Below are positions 15,198-30,164 of a DNA stretch of 64,000 bases, piece by piece (within the stretch, counting starts at the first letter, position 1; each line of letters opens with the position of its first letter). The stretch lies in assembly GCF_013391475.1 (NCBI RefSeq), contig NZ_JACBAZ010000003.1, forward strand, positions 531,178 through 595,177, given 5' to 3'. The DNA comes from Oceaniferula marina (GTDB taxonomy: Bacteria > Verrucomicrobiota > Verrucomicrobiia > Verrucomicrobiales > Akkermansiaceae). Under the pieces are notes generated by a model. The model searched no databases. It was not told where the DNA came from and saw nothing but the letters and a program-made list of their open reading frames with translations. Position numbers and translations under genes: made by a program.

Positions 15198-16412
15198 ATG
15201 GCTTCTTTCACATTGTCACGCCTTTTTCCTATCTGGGGACTCAGTCTCTTACTCACATCACTCAGCAACGGCCAAACTGATCCGGCTCCAAGCACGGAAA
15301 CCAACCATAGCCACACCGGACTCCAACAAACCGAGATCAAAGGGCTCTTGGTCATGAAAATGAGTAACGGCAAATATGCTGGTGCGGCGGCTCAAATGAA
15401 CGCCACCGTGATTGAAAAAAAAGCCGACTTCGAAATCGGCTTTAACCAATCCGTTGGCAGCATGATGGACTCGGCCACCAAAGAGGTCGAAAAATTCATC
15501 CGGGTTCGATACGCCAAACGTCTCCCTACAGGCATGCGGATTGAATTTGCATTTTCAAACAAGTATTCCCCCAAAGACGGCCCATCCGCAGCCGTTGCCT
15601 GCGCACTAATGGCCGACTCCATTCTATCCGGAAACGAGCTCGATCAGGGCTTTGCCGCCACCGGCGACATGACTGCCACCGGAGATGTCCGCGCTGTGGG
15701 AGGTGTTCAATCAAAGATCAAAGGGGCCATAAAAAAACAATGCACCATCGTCACCATCCCAAAAGGAAATCAGGCAGCGGTTGCCGACTCCTACATCATC
15801 AAAGGACTCAAACCTCTGTATGCTATACAAATCTTCTCCGTTGAAACCTTCGATGAAGCTCTCGAACTCGCCAAATCGAAAAGAAAGGAAAACATACAAA
15901 AAGCCATCGATGAGTTTGCCCTGGTGCAAAAGGCACTCAATAAAAATGAGAAATACATCTATAACAGTAAAGTACAGGCAAAATTGCGGCAGGTCATCAC
16001 ACTTGCACCCCACCACCTGTCTGCAAAAAATCTCCTGCTTCATGGTCTGAAAAAAGGACCTCAACGGCTCTCACTCGTCGGATCCATCAATTGCATCAAT
16101 GCCGCTCACGAAAACTTCGGATCCATTCTCGAGGACAATAGCTTCTCAACCAGCCGCATCGATCAAGACGTCCTCACCGAACTAATCTACGAATTCAGAC
16201 GACTGCGAACCAAACTCGACAAGCGAACGATCCCCTGCACCGACGCCTACGTCGATCTCGCTGAATTTATCAAAGACGTACGCAACCGGAAAATCTTCAA
16301 CCAACAACTTCAGGAAAAGCTAACCTCCATGATCGAAACCGTGGTATCCGAACGCAAAAAACTCTTCAACAATCCGCAAGTTCGCGAAGAAATCATGGAA
16401 GACTACCAATAG
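15198..16412 (+). CDS. exported Lon-type (S16) serine protease domain protein
   Basis: A 404-residue protein with an N-terminal signal peptide (core LFPIWGLSLLLTSLSNG) followed by a Lon proteolytic domain without the Lon ATPase. The motif KDGPSAAVACAL contains Ser130 and GGVQSKIKGA contains Lys173. The 43-residue spacing equals that of the Ser-Lys dyad in E. coli Lon (679/722). The domain end TIVTIPKGNQ also fits. The last ~180 residues are helical with no recognised family. The protein should therefore be an ATP-independent periplasmic or surface Lon-fold protease. The 3' end overlaps the convergent formyltransferase gene by 20 bases. Lon-fold proteases without ATPase are known, but an exported one this size is uncommon in my experience. 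Confidence 0.82.
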   Translation: MASFTLSRLFPIWGLSLLLTSLSNGQTDPAPSTETNHSHTGLQQTEIKGLLVMKMSNGKYAGAAAQMNATVIEKKADFEIGFNQSVGSMMDSATKEVEKFIRVRYAKRLPTGMRIEFAFSNKYSPKDGPSAAVACALMADSILSGNELDQGFAATGDMTATGDVRAVGGVQSKIKGAIKKQCTIVTIPKGNQAAVADSYIIKGLKPLYAIQIFSVETFDEALELAKSKRKENIQKAIDEFALVQKALNKNEKYIYNSKVQAKLRQVITLAPHHLSAKNLLLHGLKKGPQRLSLVGSINCINAAHENFGSILEDNSFSTSRIDQDVLTELIYEFRRLRTKLDKRTIPCTDAYVDLAEFIKDVRNRKIFNQQLQEKLTSMIETVVSERKKLFNNPQVREEIMEDYQ

Positions 16413-17352
16413 CCGCCCCCTCAAGCGTTTCAAAGCGCTCCCCCGATTTCAGCTGAAACAACTGACGAAAACGAACACCGGTACACAGGAGGTCACGAGA
16501 AGAGACCACGTCCACCCGTAGACAAGCGGCATCCCTGCAGAGAATATACAAGTTCGGATCGCCCTGAGCCTCAACAACCGTTCCTGCAGGCTCATCAGGT
16601 GGATCCGATAAAGAGATCACAGTTACCTCATGCAAGCATAACGGAACCATACGTATGCCTGTTTCTGCTCCCGGATAGGAAGGGTTGCAGGCTCGGACCA
16701 GACGATCTATTTCATCCGCATCCATCTGCTCCCAGTCAATCTGCAAATCCGTACCGGCCGGGCGGGTCTGGTAATTTGCAACTGCTTCATCCTGCTCACA
16801 TAAGGTTCCCTCGCCTCGCTCCAAATACTCACACAACGCATCCATTGCCGCCGGACCTCCATGTGCCAACTTGGCCAGATGCGTTCCCAACACGTCATGC
16901 TCCGTGAAATCCAAGGAATGCGACCATAACACCTCTCCGGAATCGAACATCCTCTCCATCTTGTGCAGAGTTAAGCCCCCACCCTTCTCTCCATTCCTCA
17001 TCTGCCAAAACACCGGGTCTGGTCCCCGATAGAATGGCAATTGGCCGAGGTGAACATTCCAGCACCCTTGCGCTGGAAAAGCTAACACGCAGTCAGGAAA
17101 CCGGTAAGGAAAGGTCATAACAACGATGGCCTCAGGATTTACATCCTTCAGCCACGCCATCAAATTGCATTCCAACTTATTTTTCTGACAGACAAAAAAG
17201 GGAATCCTTGCCGATTCGGCCACCCCCCGCACTTCCAGCGCATACGCATGTCCGTAATCAGAAACCACCACACCAGCCAACACCTTCCGCTGTAGCAATC
17301 TCACGAGAGCCAGCTGACTCACGCCATGATTACAGAATAATACTATTTTCAT
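16393..17352 (-). CDS. formyltransferase family enzyme (Fmt-like fold)
   Basis: A 319-residue protein of the folate-dependent formyltransferase family. The catalytic triad of the family is visible: Asn99 and His101 in CWNVHLGQLPFYRG, and Asp137 in MFDSGEV. The His-Asp spacing is 36, as in methionyl-tRNA formyltransferase (His108/Asp144). The C-terminal ~100 residues resemble the Fmt C-terminal beta domain. The N-terminal sequence is divergent from housekeeping Fmt. With a DUF6916-like gene 15 bases upstream in the same direction and tail-collar genes divergent, this copy probably formylates a sugar amine or a peptide of that cluster, not initiator tRNA. The substrate is inferred only from context. 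Confidence 0.75.
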   Translation of the reverse strand: MKIVLFCNHGVSQLALVRLLQRKVLAGVVVSDYGHAYALEVRGVAESARIPFFVCQKNKLECNLMAWLKDVNPEAIVVMTFPYRFPDCVLAFPAQGCWNVHLGQLPFYRGPDPVFWQMRNGEKGGGLTLHKMERMFDSGEVLWSHSLDFTEHDVLGTHLAKLAHGGPAAMDALCEYLERGEGTLCEQDEAVANYQTRPAGTDLQIDWEQMDADEIDRLVRACNPSYPGAETGIRMVPLCLHEVTVISLSDPPDEPAGTVVEAQGDPNLYILCRDAACLRVDVVSSRDLLCTGVRFRQLFQLKSGERFETLEGAAIGSLP

Positions 17353-17367
17353 GATCCGTTTTTTTGA

Positions 17368-17673
17368 TTACCCGACAATCGCAACATACTGACACTTCGC
17401 TTCACCCCCATCCTCCAACATCTTCTCAGCTTGTAGATTGAACACCCCACATTCTTCGCTTTCCACGCATCTCCACGCAACAACACCCCCGTCCACCTCA
17501 GGGCGAAAATCACCATGAAACACAAACACATACGGCTGACTCGAAACACCCTCAGGCAAATCTCCAACACGCTCAGGCAAAACCACCACCTCTTTCAGCA
17601 CCAACAATAAATTTTTTTTGCAAGCTATCTGATAGGTTCGACCGACTCGATTTTTGTGGTGTTCCATATGCAT
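17368..17673 (-). CDS. DUF6916-like small protein
   Basis: A ~101-residue protein (ATG 17673; GTG at 17691 would add six residues, ATG 17667 would remove two). The pattern YQIACKKNLLLVLKEVVVLPE, then QPYVFVFHGDF, and the end YVAIVG resembles the all-beta DUF6916 domain that is often encoded near tail-collar/MdpB genes. The match is by eye and distant. It is the first gene of a two-gene minus-strand unit with the formyltransferase and is divergent from the tail-collar genes. A structural or assembly role for that system is a guess. Confidence 0.5.
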   Translation of the reverse strand: MHMEHHKNRVGRTYQIACKKNLLLVLKEVVVLPERVGDLPEGVSSQPYVFVFHGDFRPEVDGGVVAWRCVESEECGVFNLQAEKMLEDGGEAKCQYVAIVG

Positions 17674-17691
17674 TCCCGATCTATCCACCAC

Positions 17692-17990
17692 TCCGACAAG
17701 CTTGTCAATAAGTCAATCGATCACAAATCGTCACACAAGCGAACATCTTTTTTCTAGACACTCACCTTCATTACATTAAGTTCGGCGAGTCCTCACCAAA
17801 CAAACTAACATTTTCTATCATGTTCTATGTGAACCCTGTATTACAGGACCAAGGACAACCTAACTAAAACCACCAACCAAACCCCACTCGCAAACAAAAC
17901 ATCGAACTGCTTATTTTTTCAAACCCCACACCGCCTGGCATAGGCACTGTGCGCTAGTGTACTGAACCCCCGGTCATACTAAACCAACAC
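17692..17990. other. gene-free divergent intergenic region
   Basis: This A/T-richer stretch separates the two arms of the cluster and should carry their promoters. No reading frame with protein-like composition was found on either strand. A convincing -35/-10 pair could not be chosen by eye. Confidence 0.4.
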
Positions 17991-18060
17991 CAATCGCATC
18001 CCATCGCCGCAAATCGCAGCCAATCGCTTTCGATAAACTAGCGATAAACCAACGATAGGC
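17991..18060. promoter_or_regulatory. phased ATCGC / CGATA repeat array
   Basis: Four copies of ATCGC start at 17993, 18003, 18013 and 18023, exactly 10 bases apart. Three copies of CGATA(AA), the opposite orientation of a related core, start at 18031, 18042 and 18053, 11 bases apart. The spacing matches one helical turn, so all sites face the same side of the DNA. The array lies ~160-230 bases before the first tail-collar ATG and ~320-390 bases before the divergent DUF6916-like gene. It looks like an operator or nucleoprotein binding array, but no regulator gene is adjacent. Confidence 0.5.
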
Positions 18061-18219
18061 GCATGGTCGATTGTTGACGCTCAGACTACTGAACTGGCGC
18101 AAACTCAACAGGAACATTCCCTGCATGGCACCACTGTGCCCGGTGAAAGAGGAACAATTGACCTCCTCTCAAAGCAAATCCAAACCCATCAACCAACTAA
18201 ACCATTAATTCAAGAATCC

Positions 18220-18762
18220 ATGTCTGAACCCCTCATTGCTGAAATTAAAATGTTTGGAGGCAACTTCGCCCCGCGCGGCTGGGCTTTCTGCAACGGTCAA
18301 ACCCTTGCCATTTCATCCAACTCCGCTTTATTCTCCATCCTCGGCACCATCTACGGAGGTGACGGCCGCACCACCTTCGCCCTACCCGACCTTCGCGGCC
18401 GCACCCCCATCTCATCGGGTCGTGGCCCGGGGCTAGCCAACTACAACCTTGGCCAACGAGGGGGCAGCGAACAGGTTGTTTTAAACAGCACTCAAATCCC
18501 CTCACATCACCATACAGTCAACAACCTGAAGGTAGGTGTCAGCACCCAGGCAGCAGATACCGACGACCCCTCAGGAGCCGTCTTCGGAGTCGGCAATGAA
18601 GATGCCTTTTTTGAAGGAGCCGCCAACGCCACAATGGATGACACCTCCCTTACCGGCAACACGGACTTTACAGGTGGAAACCAATCCCACACCAACATGC
18701 AACCTTACCTCGCCACCAACTACATCATCGCCTTGCTAGGAATCTACCCATCAAGAAGTTAG
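18220..18762 (+). CDS. phage tail-collar (MdpB-like) protein, copy 1
   Basis: A 180-residue protein that starts at ATG 18220 (the frame extends upstream to 18136 but loses family resemblance). The N-terminal tail-collar domain is clear: EIKMFGGNFAPRGWAFCNGQ, GGDGRTTFALPDLRGR, then the HHHTV receptor-binding-tip-like turn. The C-terminal end MQPYLATNYIIALLGIYPSR is the standard family end. Members are found in phage tail tips and as bacterial multigene clusters (microcystin-related MdpB). No signal peptide is visible. Copy 2 is at 19609, with a PEP-CTERM gene between them. A stretch of near-identity (STQAADTDDPSG) shows recent duplication. Confidence 0.88.
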   Translation: MSEPLIAEIKMFGGNFAPRGWAFCNGQTLAISSNSALFSILGTIYGGDGRTTFALPDLRGRTPISSGRGPGLANYNLGQRGGSEQVVLNSTQIPSHHHTVNNLKVGVSTQAADTDDPSGAVFGVGNEDAFFEGAANATMDDTSLTGNTDFTGGNQSHTNMQPYLATNYIIALLGIYPSRS

Positions 18763-18822
18763 ATCAAACCAAAACAAACTAACGACTTTTTTTACTTCTT
18801 TAATAAAACCCAATCCAAACGA

Positions 18823-19557
18823 ATGAACGCATTAACAAATCACAAAAACATTCTCAGTATCGCTATGACCACCGCCCTCGGCGTTGGCTTATCCCATGCC
18901 GCCCTCATTTCCAGCAGCATACCGACCGTTGGCGAAACCGGCGGCTTCAGTGACGGAGTTGGCGACTACTTCGGCATTGTTACTGGCGGTCTGATTGCCG
19001 GCAACACCTTCTCACCCAACACTACAACACCTCCCGAAGGGGCACTCGCAGGGCGCGACCTCGACGACGGAGGCGCCTTGCCCGCCGACCGGACCGCTGA
19101 GTGGTCACTCCCCCTTCCCGGAGGAGCCACTCCCCCCATGAGCAGCATCATTTTCAATGGCTCCATTGCCGCGCGTGACAGCACCTCATGGGATGCCTCG
19201 GACTCCATCAAACTCGAACTCTTCATCGACGGACTCATCGCAGATAGCATCGAGTTTCGACCCAATAATCCTACCAGCACTACATCGCTGGCCGAGGACA
19301 CCAATGCAGACAACATCGGTGACGGCCCAGCCATCAATCCGCTTGCACCTTACGCGTTCCAGCTTTCCTCTCCCACCACCGCCAATACCGGCGTCACTGT
19401 AAAAATCACCGCCCATTCCGACTCAGCGAATGAAGAGTTCTGGGTCAGCGGCACCCTCTCTGCGGAGGTTGATACCTCAGGAACCGTCCCTGAACCCTCC
19501 TCCACCATGCTGCTCGGACTGGCAGGATCCATCTTGATCTTCCGTCGCAAAAAATAA
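18823..19557 (+). CDS. PEP-CTERM exported protein between the tail-collar genes
   Basis: A 244-residue protein with a signal peptide (cleavage near SHA-ALISS), an Asp/Thr/Pro-rich beta-type body, and a C-terminal PEP-CTERM signal: VPEPSSTMLLGLAGSILIF followed by RRKK. It would be sorted by exosortase to the cell surface or matrix. The body resembles generic exported beta proteins of Verrucomicrobia, without a named domain. It lies 60 bases after tail-collar copy 1 and 51 bases before copy 2, so an operon is likely. This suggests a surface role for the cluster. Confidence 0.8.
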   Translation: MNALTNHKNILSIAMTTALGVGLSHAALISSSIPTVGETGGFSDGVGDYFGIVTGGLIAGNTFSPNTTTPPEGALAGRDLDDGGALPADRTAEWSLPLPGGATPPMSSIIFNGSIAARDSTSWDASDSIKLELFIDGLIADSIEFRPNNPTSTTSLAEDTNADNIGDGPAINPLAPYAFQLSSPTTANTGVTVKITAHSDSANEEFWVSGTLSAEVDTSGTVPEPSSTMLLGLAGSILIFRRKK

Positions 19558-19608
19558 GACCCATCGATTCGATTAACATCCAGAATAACCCACTAATCCC
19601 ACACAACC

Positions 19609-20160
19609 ATGGCTGATCCTTTTCTCGCAGAAATTAAAATGTTCGGGGGCAATTTTGCACCTCGCGGCTGGGCCTTTTGCAATGGCCAATTGCTCGCCAT
19701 CAACAACTACCAAGCGCTCTTCTCCCTGCTGGGCACCACCTACGGGGGCGACGGACGCACTTCGTTTGGTCTGCCCGACCTCCGTGGACGAGCCGCTATT
19801 CACTCTGGAAACGCCAGCGCGGGCCCGGGACTGACCCCTCGCCCATTGGGACAAAAATCCGGGGTTGAACAGGTCACCCTGACCGCCAACCAAATTCCAT
19901 CACACCATCACACTGCCTCGAATCTGAAGGTAGGAGTCAGCACTCAGGCTGCTGACACCGATGATCCGTCCGGCACTGTCTTCGGCGTGGGTAACGAAGA
20001 TGCTTTTTTCGAAGGAGCAGCCAACGCCAACATGGGCGACAGCTCAATCACCGGCACCACGGACAACACCGGCGGCTCCCAGCCACACACCAATATGCAA
20101 CCCTACCTTGCGGTCAATTACATCATCGCCCTTCAAGGCACATTCCCATCACGTAGTTAA
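19609..20160 (+). CDS. phage tail-collar (MdpB-like) protein, copy 2
   Basis: A 183-residue paralogue of the protein at 18220. It has the same domain order: EIKMFGGNFAPRGWAFCNGQ at the start, GGDGRTSFGLPDLRGR, an HHHTA turn and MQPYLAVNYIIALQGTFPSR at the end. It differs mainly around the loop after the glycine-rich segment (residues ~63-85), the place where family members usually vary. It is in tandem on the same strand, 18 bases before the Tat-exported gene. The pair may form homo- or heterotrimers at a tip structure, but no tube, sheath or baseplate gene is present in the window. Confidence 0.88.
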   Translation: MADPFLAEIKMFGGNFAPRGWAFCNGQLLAINNYQALFSLLGTTYGGDGRTSFGLPDLRGRAAIHSGNASAGPGLTPRPLGQKSGVEQVTLTANQIPSHHHTASNLKVGVSTQAADTDDPSGTVFGVGNEDAFFEGAANANMGDSSITGTTDNTGGSQPHTNMQPYLAVNYIIALQGTFPSRS

Positions 20161-20178
20161 TCCCAAGCCCCCATCACC

Positions 20179-21210
20179 ATGCGCACATCACAAACCCGAA
20201 GACATTTTCTTCACAGACTTGGCTGGGTCTCCGGTGCAGGCCTGGCCTCGCCACAGTTATTACTCGCCGATACCAGCTCACACCGCCGCAGCGGCCAAGC
20301 CCGTCGTAGCCTGCAAAAAGTCCTGTCATTCGTGGACCGCTATGCCAGCCAATCCTGCCTTTGTGGTATCAGTGCCGCGGTAGAAGCCACCGGAGGCCAA
20401 CAAAACACCCCGGTTCAGATCCTTGCCTGCATTGCATCCACCGAAAGCCTGACCCGAGCCCTCACCCATACGGCAGGGTTACCATTCAATCAGGTTTACG
20501 CCGATGGCAACCAACTCGCATTCCACTACTCAGGACGCGAATACACCATCTTCAACCAGCATGCTGAAGAATTCTCACAGCAAAAAGAAACCATTCACCG
20601 CTATGGAGTAGGACCGGAAAGCAGCACCGCAGCCTATGCCCACGACTACCTTACTTGGGACAACCAATCCCGAAAACTCAGCGACCTCAAACGCACGGTT
20701 GTCGGCAACAAGATCATACTCAAAAAGGTCCTGCCAGCCGGAGTTTCCTACCAATTCCAGGATATTCTCAAAGGTATGCTCGACGCCTCCATCCTGGAGC
20801 TTGAGACGCCGGAAGCCATCCTTAACGAATGGCGGCACACCCTGAAGAATACCCAACCTGAGGACCCGGATACCATCACCGCCTGCTTACTGAGCCACCT
20901 GACCGACCTTAGCTTCTACCTGGAGGAGCCCGCCATCATCTCGCTGCTGCAAAGCCCACTACTTGCTGAGTCACTTCGTCAGGTGTTGTCGATTCGCACT
21001 CAGGATCTCATTACCTGCTTCAAACAACTCAAACCAAAGGCTCTGCGAAGAAAGGATCAGGAAAGCCTCTGGCACGCAGCCCTCATCGCCGTTTGCCCGG
21101 ATGGAGCGAATAACCAGACACTCCAAGCCCACTTCTTAAACCCCGGTTCGCATTCCAAGCGAATCTCTCCCCACGCGACCTGGCGTCGCGCCTGCCAACT
21201 GAGTGCTTGA
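20179..21210 (+). CDS. Tat-exported protein of unknown function
   Basis: A 343-residue protein beginning with a twin-arginine signal (TRRHFLHR, then GWVSGAGLASP; cleavage likely near LLLADTSS), so it is exported folded. No known domain was recognised. The mature part has a conserved-looking CLCG motif shortly after the signal. A beta-rich middle (AFHYSGREYTIF) follows, and the C-terminal half is helical. It starts 18 bases after tail-collar copy 2 and is followed by a strong terminator, so it is the last gene of the cluster. Tat export suggests a cofactor or cytoplasmic folding, perhaps with the two nearby Cys residues. Confidence 0.65.
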   Translation: MRTSQTRRHFLHRLGWVSGAGLASPQLLLADTSSHRRSGQARRSLQKVLSFVDRYASQSCLCGISAAVEATGGQQNTPVQILACIASTESLTRALTHTAGLPFNQVYADGNQLAFHYSGREYTIFNQHAEEFSQQKETIHRYGVGPESSTAAYAHDYLTWDNQSRKLSDLKRTVVGNKIILKKVLPAGVSYQFQDILKGMLDASILELETPEAILNEWRHTLKNTQPEDPDTITACLLSHLTDLSFYLEEPAIISLLQSPLLAESLRQVLSIRTQDLITCFKQLKPKALRRKDQESLWHAALIAVCPDGANNQTLQAHFLNPGSHSKRISPHATWRRACQLSA

Positions 21211-21278
21211 TGCTCCTAAGTACCACGTGGCACTCCCCCTCTGCGCCTTTGGCGCAAAACCAAAACCCCCTTCCCCCA

Positions 21279-21311
21279 GCCTGTGCCCACCCCGGGGCAC
21301 AGGCATTTTTT
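21279..21311 (+). terminator. strong intrinsic terminator closing the tail-collar cluster
   Basis: A perfect 10-bp GC-rich stem (GCCTGTGCCC at 21279-21288, GGGCACAGGC at 21295-21304) with a 6-base loop is followed by ATTTTTT. It marks the end of the transcription unit that includes the Tat-exported gene. A smaller stem (TGCGCC/GGCGCA) sits at 21242-21256. Confidence 0.85.
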
Positions 21312-25037: not shown

Positions 25038-28000
25038 ATGTCAGATCAACAGCAACAGCTAGAAAGTGGTGCCTACGAGGTCATCCGTGGGCGCATGGAA
25101 AAACATGGCCTGGACCTGCGTGAACGGATCGAAAAACTCAACACCGACCGGAAGCAGATCTTTGGTGCAATCGACCCCGCCCTCATCGCCACCGAGCGCA
25201 TCAGCACCGAGCACAACTGCGTGCCGCGCGATATGGTATCGATCGGGGCCAATCGATTCCTGTTCGGCTACAACATCCAGTTCGGGCTGAAAAAAACCAC
25301 CCACCCGTCCGACGTTTTCGACATCTACGAATACGACCCGGAATCCCATGCTTTCTCCAAGCTCGATGAAGTCGCCATCTTTGGTTCCGAGTTCGCCGAA
25401 GACTTCCAGTACCTCTACAAGTACTACAAACAAACGACCTTTGTAAAATTCATGCTCATCGGCCCGCACCTCTACATGGGCATGCGGATCGGCAAAGCGA
25501 TCGACGACATCAAAACCTTCAAGTGGCTCATCAATGGTGATGGCTCACTCGAATACCTCGGCAACCGCTTCGACCACGAGTATCTTTTCCCACCCCAGCA
25601 GGAATTCGAATGGATCCGCGCCCACCGCGATATGCAACGCGGCGGCGAACACCCACACATTTCGATCGACGACCGGATCTTTGTCGAAACCGTCGGTGGC
25701 GACCTCACCATCAAGGTCGAGGATAATACCTCAGACGGCAAAGGCATCTACGAAGAAGAAGTCTCCGACCTCGACCAAACACTCGACGATGCCGAGATCT
25801 TCTACGCCAGCGTCGGTCCCCTGATCCTACTTAAAATCCTCCCCTACCGCGAGGAAGACTACCGCTACCTCGTCTATAACGAAAAAACCCAGGATGTCCA
25901 CCGACTCGATGCCATTGGCCACTCCTGCGTCCTGCTCCCCGACGAGCACGGACTGATCTTTGCCAACGGCTACCTTCAACTCAGCGGCGAAATCAAAACC
26001 TTCGACCACGGTATCCTCGACATGCGTTTTGAAAAACGCATTGTCAGCGCCAACGGCGAAGACACCCTCTTTGTGTTCTACAACCGAGCCAGCGGAGATT
26101 ACGTTCTACTCTCCTACAACTTGATCGAGCGCTCGGTGGAAAACCCGATCATCTGCAGCGGTTACTCACTCTTCCCCGACGGCAAACTACTCTACTTCCG
26201 CTCCGAGGGACAGCGCTCCGGCAATGGCGAGGCCAAGCCCCCCGAACCTCAAAAACATCATGTCATCCAGGCATGGCAAACCCCCTACCTCAACGACGAG
26301 TTCTCGGCCCGAATCACCGCCGAAAACGATTCCTTTCTCTTCAAAATTGGCAACCCGGACATCGTCCGCTGTATGGCCGAGTGCCGCGAGGTTCTCAATT
26401 TGTTAGGAAAAGAGGATTCCTATGCCGGACTCTACCTCGATCTGGTCAAAAAGACCGGCGACATCAACGACGCCTATTTCTGGGTCAGTAAAAACGAAGC
26501 CTACAAGCTCTCCGATCCACTACGGGAAATCAATGCCGCCGCCAACTCCGCCATCGATGAGTTCGACAAGGTGGTCCGACTCCGCCAATCGACCGGCGAA
26601 CAGACCACGGCCACCCAGGAATCCGTTCGCACCCTGATCCGTCAGGTCGAACACTCCCCGCCCGATGACATCCAGGGATACGTGCACCAGCTCACCAGCC
26701 TACGCACCCTGCGTGGAGATATCATCGGCCTGCGCGACCTCCGCTACGTCGACCTCGATCTTGTTGCATCCTTAGAACAAGACGTTGTCACCGCCACTGA
26801 GACGGTTTCACAAAAAACCGTCAATTTCCTGCTCACGCCGGAAGCTCTCGATTCCTACCGGTCCGCTGTCGATGAACAAAAAGCATCGATTGCAAAATTG
26901 AAAAAGGTCACCGAGGCCGACGACACCGCTGAGTCACTCGACAACGCCGGCGCCGAACTCGAAATGCTGATCGATGTGGTCAGCAATCTAAAAATTGAAG
27001 ATGCCACCCAGACAACCGCGATCATCGAGAGCATCTCCAGTATTTACTCGACCCTCAATGCCGTTCGCGCCGAACTGAAAAACAAACGTCAATCGCTGGC
27101 GAAGTCGGAGGGCACGGCCCAGTTTGGTGCCCAGATGAAACTGCTCGGTCAGGCAGTAGTCAATTACCTCGACCTCTGCGATCACCCGGACAAGTGCGAA
27201 GAGTATCTGACCAAAGTCATGGTGCAGATCGAGGAACTCGAAGGAAAATTTGCCGAGTTCGATGAGTATGCCGACGAACTCGCCGCCAAACGCGAGGAGG
27301 TCTACGACGCCTTTGAAACCCGCAAGACCACCTTGCTGGAAAAACGTAACAAGCGGGCTGCCAATCTGGTCAAATCCGCCGAGCGGGTGCTCTCCGGGAT
27401 CAAACATCGCGCCGAAGGCTTCAAGGAGATCAATGAGATCAACGGCTACTTCGCCGGCGACCTGATGATATCCAAAGTCCGCGACATCATCGAGCAACTT
27501 GAAGAACTCGGCGATACCGTCAAAGCCGCCGACATCCAGACCCAGCTGAAAACGCTGAAAGAAGATGCCGTCCGACAGCTCAAGGACCGCAAGGAGCTCT
27601 ACGTCGATGGCAAAAACATCATCCAATTCGGCAAACACAAATTCAACGTCAACACCCAGGAGCTGCAACTCTCAATCGTCCCCCGCGACAAGGATATGTG
27701 TTTCCACCTCGCTGGCACCGATTTCTTTGAGCCTATCACCGAACCCGCCTTCCTCGAAACCAGCGCTGTCTGGGAGCAAGAGGTTATCTCGGAAAACAAA
27801 CAGGTCTACCGCGCCGAATACCTCGCTTACCAGTTTCTTCGTGACGGTGACCTTCGGTCAGCCAGTCAATCGCTTGAAACGGAGCACTTGAAACTTGAAA
27901 CTCTGAGCCGCTTCGCCGCCGAGCGTTACACTGAGGCCTACACCAAAGGCGTTCACGACCAGGACGCTTTCAAAATCCTCGAAGCCCTGCTCCCCATTCA

Positions 28001-30164
28001 TAAAACGATTGGCCTCCTAAGATTCTCACCAGCCGTCCGAGCCGCGGCCATGCTCTTCTGGCACACTTGGGAGTCACCTGAAAAATCAATTCTGGAATCC
28101 CAGCTTCATTCCATCAGCGAGATGCGGAAAAGCGGCTTCGCCTCCAACACCGACTCTTCGAGCTACCTGCCCCAGCTCACCGAAGCCCTCTCGGAGAGTA
28201 AACTCAATACTCTCAACTCCAACCTCCAACTTCAAATCGCGAAGTATCTGTTCGCCCAACTTTCCTCTGGCTCCCCCTTTGTGGTTTCCCCCGAGGCGAA
28301 CAACATCATCCAGAAGTTCAACCAAACGCTGACCGCCAAACGTGCCAAGGACGCCTTCGAGACATCCACTGCCAATCTCACTGGCCAGGCCAAATACCAG
28401 ACGATCCTCGACTGGATCATCTCCTCCCGCGAGCTCAGCCAGCCCGGAGAGCCAGAACCTCATTCAACACTCAGCATTCTACATTCCCAATTCCGCGAAG
28501 CGGCGGCCCATCTCCTGATGGGGCAACCAGCGAAGCGGGATGTCCACCACGTCGAGGTCGCCACTGAAATCAACGGCCTCCTGGGCTCCCACACGGTCAT
28601 TGATGAAGGCAATTATCAGCTCCACTACAATGCCTTTATGGATAAACTCGATGCCTTCGAGTCCACGGATGTCCCCACCTTCCAGGCCTATCAAAGAACC
28701 AAACAAGAACTCACCGAGTCCAAACGCGACGATATGCGCCTGCACGAGTTTCAGGCCCGCGTCATGTCCGCCTTCGTGCGCAATAAGTTGTTGAATGATG
28801 TCTATCTGCCCATGATCGGCGACAACCTCGCCAAACAGATGGGCACCGCCGGTGTGGATACCCGCACCGACCGCATGGGGCTGTTGCTGCTCATCTCCCC
28901 TCCGGGGTACGGAAAGACCACGCTGATGGAATACGTTGCCAACCGACTTGGTCTGACGTTCATGAAGATCAATGGTCCGGCCATCGGCCACGCCGTTACC
29001 TCACTCGACCCGAACGAGGCACCCAACGCCTCAGCCCGTGAAGAGGTCGAAAAACTCAACCTCGCACTCGAGATGGGCGACAACGTCATGCTCTACCTCG
29101 ATGACATCCAGCACTGCAACCCGGAGTTCCTGCAAAAATTCATCTCCCTCTGTGACGCCCAACGGAAAATCGAAGGGGTCTACAATGGTCAGGCAAAAAC
29201 CTACGACCTGCGCGGTAAGACCGTATCGGTCGTCATGGCCGGTAACCCGTACACCGAGTCCGGCGGTAAGTTTCAGATCCCGGACATGCTCGCCAACCGC
29301 GCCGATACCTACAACCTCGGTGACATCATTGGCGGCCATGCCGAGTCGTTTAAAGCCTCCTACATCGAAAACTCGCTGACCTCCAACAGCGTGCTCAGCA
29401 AGCTGGCCTCACGTTCGCAAAAGGACGTCTACGCCGTGATGCAGGTCGCCAGCTCCGGCAGCCAGGAAGGAGTCGACTTCGAAGGCAACTACACCGCCTC
29501 AGAAATCGATGAGTTTGTTAAAACCACCCAGCACCTCTACACGGTGCGCGATACCATTCTCAGTGTAAACCTGCAGTATATCCGCTCAGCGGCTCAGGAA
29601 GATGCCTACCGCACCGAACCCGCCTTCAAACTCCAAGGTTCTTACCGGAACATGAACCGGATCGCCGAAAAGGTGCTGCCACTGATGACCCACGAGGAAG
29701 TCCGCGAGCTGATCATCGACCACTACGAAAACGAATCCCAGACACTCACCACCGGAGCCGAGGCCAACTTGTTGAAGTTTAAGGAAATGGAAGGCATTCT
29801 CACCAAGGAGGAAGCCAAGCGCTGGGAGCAGATTAAGAAGGACTTCAACAAAAACAAAGTGCTCGGTGCCGCTGGCGAAAACGATCCGCTGGGCCGCGTC
29901 GTCGCCCAGATGACGATGTTCAACGATGGGCTCGATGCCATCCAAGAGGGGATCGCCAAGGCCGGCAGTCACTACGCCCAACCTCAGACGCTCGCAGAGG
30001 ACACCATCAGCCAGCTCGAAAAGATCATCGCCGGCCTGCGTGCCGTGCCCGTAGAGGTCGATATCAACCTGATCGCCGAAGAAGAAGACGGCGTGGAAGG
30101 CCTCGAAAAAACCTCCAGAAAACCACCAATCAACGTCAAACCGGAAATCCGCCAGAAAGACTAA
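25038..30164 (+). CDS. giant AAA+ ATPase with coiled coils ('DNA repair ATPase' type)
   Basis: A 1708-residue protein. Residues ~1-500 are a beta-rich domain with repeats of the FLFGYNIQFGLKK / IFVETVGGDLTIKV type, possibly propeller-like. Residues ~500-900 form long coiled coils. Then comes a mixed linker and a MoxR-like AAA+ domain: Walker A SPPGYGKTT with Lys1293, Walker B LYLDDIQ with Asp1355-Asp1356, sensor VMAGNP, and MLANRADTYNLGD as a likely arginine-finger segment. A C-terminal helical region follows. This protein type is annotated as DNA repair ATPase in databases, without firm evidence. It follows the OB-fold and flotillin genes, suggesting a membrane-linked chaperone or defence machine. 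ATG 25038 is directly preceded by repeat sequence. Confidence 0.85.
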   Translation: MSDQQQQLESGAYEVIRGRMEKHGLDLRERIEKLNTDRKQIFGAIDPALIATERISTEHNCVPRDMVSIGANRFLFGYNIQFGLKKTTHPSDVFDIYEYDPESHAFSKLDEVAIFGSEFAEDFQYLYKYYKQTTFVKFMLIGPHLYMGMRIGKAIDDIKTFKWLINGDGSLEYLGNRFDHEYLFPPQQEFEWIRAHRDMQRGGEHPHISIDDRIFVETVGGDLTIKVEDNTSDGKGIYEEEVSDLDQTLDDAEIFYASVGPLILLKILPYREEDYRYLVYNEKTQDVHRLDAIGHSCVLLPDEHGLIFANGYLQLSGEIKTFDHGILDMRFEKRIVSANGEDTLFVFYNRASGDYVLLSYNLIERSVENPIICSGYSLFPDGKLLYFRSEGQRSGNGEAKPPEPQKHHVIQAWQTPYLNDEFSARITAENDSFLFKIGNPDIVRCMAECREVLNLLGKEDSYAGLYLDLVKKTGDINDAYFWVSKNEAYKLSDPLREINAAANSAIDEFDKVVRLRQSTGEQTTATQESVRTLIRQVEHSPPDDIQGYVHQLTSLRTLRGDIIGLRDLRYVDLDLVASLEQDVVTATETVSQKTVNFLLTPEALDSYRSAVDEQKASIAKLKKVTEADDTAESLDNAGAELEMLIDVVSNLKIEDATQTTAIIESISSIYSTLNAVRAELKNKRQSLAKSEGTAQFGAQMKLLGQAVVNYLDLCDHPDKCEEYLTKVMVQIEELEGKFAEFDEYADELAAKREEVYDAFETRKTTLLEKRNKRAANLVKSAERVLSGIKHRAEGFKEINEINGYFAGDLMISKVRDIIEQLEELGDTVKAADIQTQLKTLKEDAVRQLKDRKELYVDGKNIIQFGKHKFNVNTQELQLSIVPRDKDMCFHLAGTDFFEPITEPAFLETSAVWEQEVISENKQVYRAEYLAYQFLRDGDLRSASQSLETEHLKLETLSRFAAERYTEAYTKGVHDQDAFKILEALLPIHKTIGLLRFSPAVRAAAMLFWHTWESPEKSILESQLHSISEMRKSGFASNTDSSSYLPQLTEALSESKLNTLNSNLQLQIAKYLFAQLSSGSPFVVSPEANNIIQKFNQTLTAKRAKDAFETSTANLTGQAKYQTILDWIISSRELSQPGEPEPHSTLSILHSQFREAAAHLLMGQPAKRDVHHVEVATEINGLLGSHTVIDEGNYQLHYNAFMDKLDAFESTDVPTFQAYQRTKQELTESKRDDMRLHEFQARVMSAFVRNKLLNDVYLPMIGDNLAKQMGTAGVDTRTDRMGLLLLISPPGYGKTTLMEYVANRLGLTFMKINGPAIGHAVTSLDPNEAPNASAREEVEKLNLALEMGDNVMLYLDDIQHCNPEFLQKFISLCDAQRKIEGVYNGQAKTYDLRGKTVSVVMAGNPYTESGGKFQIPDMLANRADTYNLGDIIGGHAESFKASYIENSLTSNSVLSKLASRSQKDVYAVMQVASSGSQEGVDFEGNYTASEIDEFVKTTQHLYTVRDTILSVNLQYIRSAAQEDAYRTEPAFKLQGSYRNMNRIAEKVLPLMTHEEVRELIIDHYENESQTLTTGAEANLLKFKEMEGILTKEEAKRWEQIKKDFNKNKVLGAAGENDPLGRVVAQMTMFNDGLDAIQEGIAKAGSHYAQPQTLAEDTISQLEKIIAGLRAVPVEVDINLIAEEEDGVEGLEKTSRKPPINVKPEIRQKD

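Follow-up and report, generated by a model that had tools for sequence, protein, structure and literature searches.

A chromosomal cluster of Oceaniferula marina encodes two stand-alone tail-collar proteins beside a formyltransferase homolog (here called FMT), within a 64,000-nucleotide stretch of contig NZ_JACBAZ010000003.1 (positions 531,178 to 595,177; "the window"). The collar pair has no phage genes around it, and we give an even chance to a reading in which FMT caps the N-terminal amine of the collars, in place of an acetyltransferase found in related species. The cluster (16393-21311) consists of two divergent units, the minus-strand one comprising a DUF6916-like gene and FMT, and the plus-strand one comprising collar 1, a PEP-CTERM gene, collar 2 and a gene for a Tat-signal protein (Table 1). 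In the mechanism envisaged, the collars would be synthesized in the cytosol and their first Met removed or kept such that three residues precede a conserved Phe/Tyr; the amine so exposed would be formylated from 10-formyl-tetrahydrofolate, and the capped collars, probably trimers like T4 gp12, would be exported with Tat- and exosortase-sorted partners (perhaps on the Tat partner itself) and displayed at the cell surface.

An initial annotation, made from the sequence alone, had listed the collars, a DUF6916-like gene, a formyltransferase with an intact catalytic Asn-His-Asp, a PEP-CTERM protein and a Tat signal, and Pfam searches and alignments bear out each of them. The two collars match PF07484 (99.9 and 100.8 bits; cut-off 24) and are the only collar matches in the whole genome. 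Their best PDB sequence match is 1ocy (1.9e-4), the short tail fiber gp12 of phage T4, and like this and other phage collar fibers they have the collar domain and its HxH motif, which is invariant in 29 aligned collars and has a metal-related role in the T4 fibers. They differ from gp12 in that the collar domain starts at the mature N-terminus, with no fiber shaft and no surrounding phage genes. The same annotation had noted the absence of phage tube, sheath, portal and capsid genes, and a PHROGs scan of the 43 window open reading frames (ORFs) likewise detected none of these families, the matches being the collars, enzyme-type proteins and one weak, untraced 'major tail protein' (2.3e-7). The flanks of the cluster hold four genes in common with the congener G011 (72, 69, 51 and 84% identity); three are ABC-permease-like, phosphoesterase-like and a tetratricopeptide-repeat gene (all by eye) and the fourth is RNase_H_2. 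A prophage origin was rejected because these flanks are conserved and no other clear phage structural gene occurs among the 43 ORFs. The cluster is an ordinary chromosomal one and host-encoded, as had been proposed, and its gene set recurs in other genomes, not always within a prophage.

Collars were then considered in their wider setting. A scan of species genomes confirmed 99 collar loci, of which 80, from many phyla, were kept (the "named loci"), and neighbor families within 5 kb of their collars were counted. GNAT-family proteins occur at 37 of the 80, DUF6916 proteins at 23, Asp/Asn hydroxylases at 9, sulfotransferase-like, M50/HlyD and periplasmic-binding-like proteins at 8 each, and FMT at 6. 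Genes within 3 kb of collars include 38 GNATs and 26 DUF6916 proteins among 426, and both are absent from the 184 genes at least 5 kb away, in a comparison biased toward our reading because only genes up to 5 kb from a collar went into the clusters and the far genes were labelled solely by their similarity to these; the same control is weak for FMT (6/426 near versus 0/184 far, p 0.11). The neighborhood of collar, acyl-transferase and DUF6916 recurs across phyla more than chance would allow, and the linkage of FMT to collars itself recurs in two phyla.

FMT matches Pfam Formyl_trans_N (3e-14) and Formyl_trans_C (7.4e-10). Its catalytic residues N99, H101 and D137, aligned with PDB relatives, are invariant in all nine collar-linked relatives, and the Asn-His-Asp pattern is present in 117 of the 120 FMT homologs listed. 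FMT shares with methionyl-tRNA formyltransferase (Fmt) the two-domain architecture and the N-x-H...D triad, but differs in reaching about half of the NCBIfam equivalog cut-off (100.3 against 201.5 bits), in its collar neighbors and in the missing QPD-GR loop, a motif of the genome's own Fmt that was seen in 0/9 collar-linked FMTs and 0/120 homologs listed. In Fmt this loop has a role in tRNA contact. The genome holds four formyltransferase-domain matches: FMT, a PurU-like protein (by eye), a 203-amino-acid frame that is PurN-like by size, and a true Fmt (L005) with the loop QPDKPVGR. FMT is therefore not the Fmt of this genome, since a separate one is encoded and the loop motif is lacking from FMT; the idea that it might be the sole fmt, raised beforehand, was rejected. 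With the formyltransferase domain of ArnA, FMT shares the fold family and a similar score (NCBIfam 100.8 bits; cut-off 777 for a model covering both ArnA halves), but it has no dehydrogenase half and its cluster has no sugar-nucleotide genes. PDB sequence relatives include both Fmt (1fmt, 1.2e-20) and ArnA (8e-16). A defence system was tried as a candidate and rejected, as PADLOC gave no match of note among eight proteins (one weak match of FMT, at 0.039). Judging from its linkage and from the N-terminal register described below, FMT is a candidate protein N-terminal acyl-transferase.

FMT and GNAT replace one another at collar loci. In G011 the RNase H-like gene and the DUF6916 gene flank a GNAT gene, where the window has a Lon-like gene and FMT; another congener, G007, has the same gene set with GNAT. 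Since GNAT occupies the syntenic place of FMT in G011 and tblastn found no GNAT remnant in the window, one acyl-transferase replaced another there. The two enzymes share none of the 80 named loci (one-sided p 0.02). In a sample of 244 genomes of the window's taxonomic family, collars are present in 50 and GNAT (E up to 1e-15) in 22, every one of which bears collars; 21 of the 23 GNAT matches have a collar no more than about 4 kb away, whereas that in G606 is on another contig than the collars and that in G614 is about 17 kb distant. FMT matches occur in eight of the family genomes. Three are strong (100, 41 and 35% identity) and adjoin collars; identity is 29-32% in the remaining five, and the Fmt loop is present in both of those examined. 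No genome among the 244 combines a strong FMT with this GNAT. An FMT search of a phylum sample of 387 genomes returned the window and one match at 6.4e-27, and G022 and G043, whose FMTs came from the family search, were unmatched in this sample, evidently not having been drawn. In NCBIfam the collar-linked GNATs score best against RimI, the ribosomal protein S18-alanine N-acetyltransferase (48.0 bits in L059 and 27.9 in L123), and most collars at GNAT loci have Ala or Ser as first residue once Met is removed. The GNATs differ from RimI in scoring below its cut-off of 86.4 bits, and their putative substrate is the collar instead of S18.

In collars without a signal peptide the mature N-terminus is fixed and in nearly all is predicted to lie three residues ahead of the Phe/Tyr; it reads (Ala/Ser/Met)-(Asp/Glu/Gln)-Pro-(Phe/Tyr), in which the third position is mostly Pro. 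Loss of the first Met is decided by residue 2. The fetched loci yielded 241 collar ORFs. Under the start rule applied, the collar domain opens 233 of them, including a few that in fact belong to the Sec or Tat type and were given an inner start (L045, L047, L081, L094, L060, L064, L152). After de-replication to 230, residue 2 permits Met removal in 169 of the 171 collars in which the Phe/Tyr anchor follows four residues and is a Met-keeping one in 41 of the 42 in which it follows three; the rules are obeyed in 210 of 213 tabulated collars, and the 17 not tabulated have either another offset (nine) or no anchor pattern (eight). For comparison, residue 2 permits removal in 120 of 347 neighboring ORFs, whose starts are less sure. 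On a tree built without these residues the N-terminal class switches 25 times, and among eight supported independent pairs six agree with the register, none opposes it and two do not differ.

Sec-exported collars show the same register. Of the 120 listed homologs of one Sec-type collar, 59 have a clear signal peptide and fit it; Gln occupies position 1 in 48 of these, Ala in seven, Ser in two, and Gly and Pro in one each. Many of these Sec-type homologs may be Bacteroidota, where, according to excerpts of the paper on the "Q-rule" (PMC5837995), Gln at position 1 of exported proteins is general; the Sec-exported collars likewise expose a Gln able to cyclize to pyroglutamate. They depart from the rule in that Gln is also found in five of the six Sec-type collars placed outside Bacteroidota (L045, L127, L152, P0147 and P0222; Ser in L047), for which groups the excerpts give lower and variable values (PMC5837995). 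In a separate set of six named Sec-type loci, neither GNAT nor FMT is near any (p 0.008), four of which are from related flavobacteria, with L047 on a 3-kb contig. We infer that collars have a blocked N-terminal amine, the cap being acetyl, formyl or pyroglutamate. The kind of enzyme also follows the kind of N-terminus: a Met-keeping collar is present at 7 of 9 FMT loci (window included) versus 9 of 57 GNAT loci (p 0.0004), and within Bacteroidota at 6/6 versus 0/4. Such an association would be expected if the Fmt-like enzyme acted on Met and the RimI-like one on Ala or Ser.

Several observations weigh against such capping. The weakest point, as far as the window is concerned, is the class of its own collars: both are predicted to lose Met, and the window and L125 are the exceptions among FMT loci, with Met-removed starts MSEP, MADP and MSDP. 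The product in these two would be formyl-Ser or formyl-Ala, or else Met would be kept if capped early. At 37 of the 80 named loci neither enzyme is within 5 kb, and the second collar locus of G022 has neither in the stretch fetched (L132). Neither the RimI nor the Fmt score reaches its cut-off, the Tat-signal collars (L060 twice, L094, L064) break the register, and the AlphaFold monomer of the collar has a pLDDT (predicted local distance difference test) of 50, so that its N-terminus is not placed by the model. Start codons were chosen by rule and the counts are not independent by descent. Lastly, loss of one residue from M-Ser-Glu-Pro gives M-Glu-Pro and so partly yields the register pattern; allowing for this, the near-constant removability of residue 2 in the longer form still needs explaining.

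What else might these enzymes do? The register could be kept for packing of the mature N-terminus in a collar trimer, and GNAT or FMT could modify another partner such as the DUF6916 protein, a lysine or a surface protein. Linkage by itself names no substrate, DUF6916 lies near collars at 23 of the 80 loci, and 37 hold collars without either enzyme, all of which fits this explanation; it is hard to square with the correlation between enzyme type and N-terminal class, and with the absence of both enzymes from all six named loci of Sec-type collars, in which the N-terminus is generated outside the cytosol. We judge it unlikely, if worth keeping in mind. That FMT makes an N-formyl amino sugar decorating a surface protein or glycan seems quite improbable. 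Its resemblance to ArnA is about as close as that to Fmt, and a glycosyltransferase-like gene (by eye) is near FMT in L133, but the cluster has no sugar-nucleotide enzyme, and neither the swap with a RimI-like GNAT nor the link to the collar N-terminus is predicted. The N-formyl sugars suggested in the initial annotation thus find no counterpart among the cluster genes, and the N-terminal data point to the collars, whose N-terminus is the more likely target of the enzyme.

Similarity to Fmt might alternatively mark FMT as a second methionyl-tRNA formyltransferase that lies here by coincidence; with an Fmt of its own in the genome, the QPD-GR loop missing throughout the collar-linked and listed homologs, and collar linkage in two phyla, we regard this as very improbable. 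Scarcely any weight attaches, either, to a remnant of a prophage or tailocin or a part of a contractile injection system: the collar domain does match phage tail fibers, and three of the 80 loci are near sheath and Pvc16-like genes, but 77 are without a sheath cluster, the flanks are conserved in the congener and the 43 ORFs include no other clear structural gene.

N-terminal capping of the collars by FMT, if true, would be a new enzyme activity and a new use of formylation. The parts of the system are of known kinds (a collar domain, a formyltransferase, N-terminal capping); protein N-formylation is the activity that would be new if confirmed. We tentatively extend the proposal to the whole FMT family, which might consist of Fmt-related, post-translational protein N-formyltransferases that formylate finished collars to give N-formyl surface fibers, acetyl, formyl and pyroglutamyl caps being interchangeable means of blocking the N-terminus of host-domesticated phage collars. 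A dedicated enzyme that caps the N-terminal amine of an exported fiber subunit has a precedent in PilD, which N-methylates type IV pilin; the collar proposal differs in that the cap is acyl and not methyl, the fold is another and so is the export route. Collar-domain proteins occur in many non-phage genomes, and an adjoining dedicated acyl-transferase is a first biochemical handle on them. No role is assigned to stand-alone collar proteins ('phage tail protein', 'microcystin-dependent protein') in the open-licence literature searched, preprints excluded, nothing there brings tail collars together with N-terminal acetylation, and none of the titles listed concerns the present cluster. Collar genes appear in lists without a function in excerpts of two papers (PMC11633204, PMC3174227), and excerpts of a third report that two 'phage tail proteins', whose membership in the collar family is unverified, increase in a cyanobacterial biofilm under higher shear (PMC9576798).

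The partner proteins were also analyzed. The window DUF6916-like protein is below the PF21880 cut-off (16.4 against 27 bits), but is likely a divergent member of the family because both counterparts in the congeners exceed it (38.2 and 35.7 bits). The PEP-CTERM protein scores 22.2 bits against a cut-off of 20.7; its gene adjoins a collar gene in both congeners, and weakly in G043. Specificity of this gene to the cluster is weakened by a 46% identical paralog on another contig, away from both collar genes. The genome (G000) has at least 150 PEP-CTERM matches over the cut-off and one exosortase match, and it encodes one TatC. The proposed anchoring of the collars by an exosortase substrate is accordingly weak, with so many such proteins and a paralog elsewhere, although the gene is kept beside a collar in both congeners.

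In the Tat-signal protein R7, R8 and F10 are invariant in all five aligned relatives (the motif is of the SRRxFL type; the window reads TRRHFL). Pfam TAT_signal gives no match to the window protein, and among the five relatives it gives two, both below the cut-off. The protein was found in four of the 244 family genomes, adjacent to collars in all four, and a large protein set contains two more relatives. The structure predicted for it is similar to CCA-adding enzymes, but at low TM-scores (template modeling scores), the catalytic aspartates were not seen in the alignment by eye, and a PDB sequence search with the profile gave nothing convincing (best E 0.13). Such a predicted fold is odd for an exported Tat-signal protein. 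Twin-arginine motifs are also found in 7 of 29 DUF6916 proteins near collars (one doubtful, two near-identical) and in two small collar neighbors (below the Pfam cut-off), and such signals are fused to some collars; we suggest, at low confidence, that collars lacking a signal are carried along in folded form by a Tat partner. An extracytoplasmic role is backed by the Sec and Tat signals on relatives' collars and by the surface-protein neighbors; the surface apparatus of the initial annotation is plausible and unproved.

Table 1. Features of the collar cluster (window coordinates)
Feature	Position	Strand	Remarks and evidence
Collar-linked formyltransferase (FMT)	16393..17352	-	319 aa; Pfam, PDB relatives, nine-relative alignment
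DUF6916-like protein	17368..17691	-	GTG start per ORF list, start uncertain; sub-threshold Pfam match
Intergenic region between divergent units	17692..18219	.	presumed site of both promoters; read from sequence
Collar protein 1, N-terminus MSEPLIAEIK	18220..18762	+	Pfam Collar 7.6e-29; start from relatives' alignment
PEP-CTERM protein, 244 aa	18823..19557	+	Pfam and NCBIfam PEP-CTERM; adjoins collars in both congeners
Collar protein 2, N-terminus MADPFLAEIK	19609..20160	+	Pfam Collar 4e-29; H99-x-H101 motif
Tat-signal protein, 343 aa, predicted nucleotidyltransferase-like fold	20179..21210	+	alignment, model, fold searches, collar linkage
Terminator-like hairpin, 10 pairs then T run	21279..21304	+	hairpin listing

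On the minus strand, 16 bases separate the DUF6916-like gene from FMT downstream of it. The start of the first collar was placed at ATG 18220, not 18136, from the alignment of relatives. A strong terminator was said to close the plus-strand unit; the hairpin is there and ranks first among 15 listed, but such hairpins as a class are not above the shuffled expectation (13.7 by chance), and as a terminator it is only suggestive.

Other features of collar loci may be noted. Three collars are found at 38 of the named loci, one at 30, two at 10 and four at 2, and a protein of at least 1000 aa lies within 1.5 kb of collars at 47. Two Asp/Asn-hydroxylase-like genes adjoin the congeners' collar clusters (L123 1645-2796, L124 8424-9575); none was seen beside the window cluster. 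A Peripla_BP_6-like gene is near collars at the eight loci counted above (for example L106 8527-9666). M50-peptidase/HlyD membrane proteins, encoded upstream of single-collar Pseudomonas loci (L092, L097, L100, L118-L121), are a possible dedicated exporter. The contractile-sheath and Pvc16-like genes near collars are at L051 2228-5646, L054 583-3701 and L106 2809-6233, perhaps an occasional link of collars to contractile injection systems.

The window gene convergent with FMT (15198-16412), which overlaps the FMT 3' end by 20 bases, encodes a Lon_C-domain protein (2.6e-14) with a signal-peptide-like N-terminus; no relative was found in the collar loci searched, and it is not present at that place in G011. 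Outside the cluster, a 1708-aa ATPase-like ORF (25038-30164, by eye) lies downstream of a YqiJ-like gene and of a flotillin-like gene, the latter named by eye.

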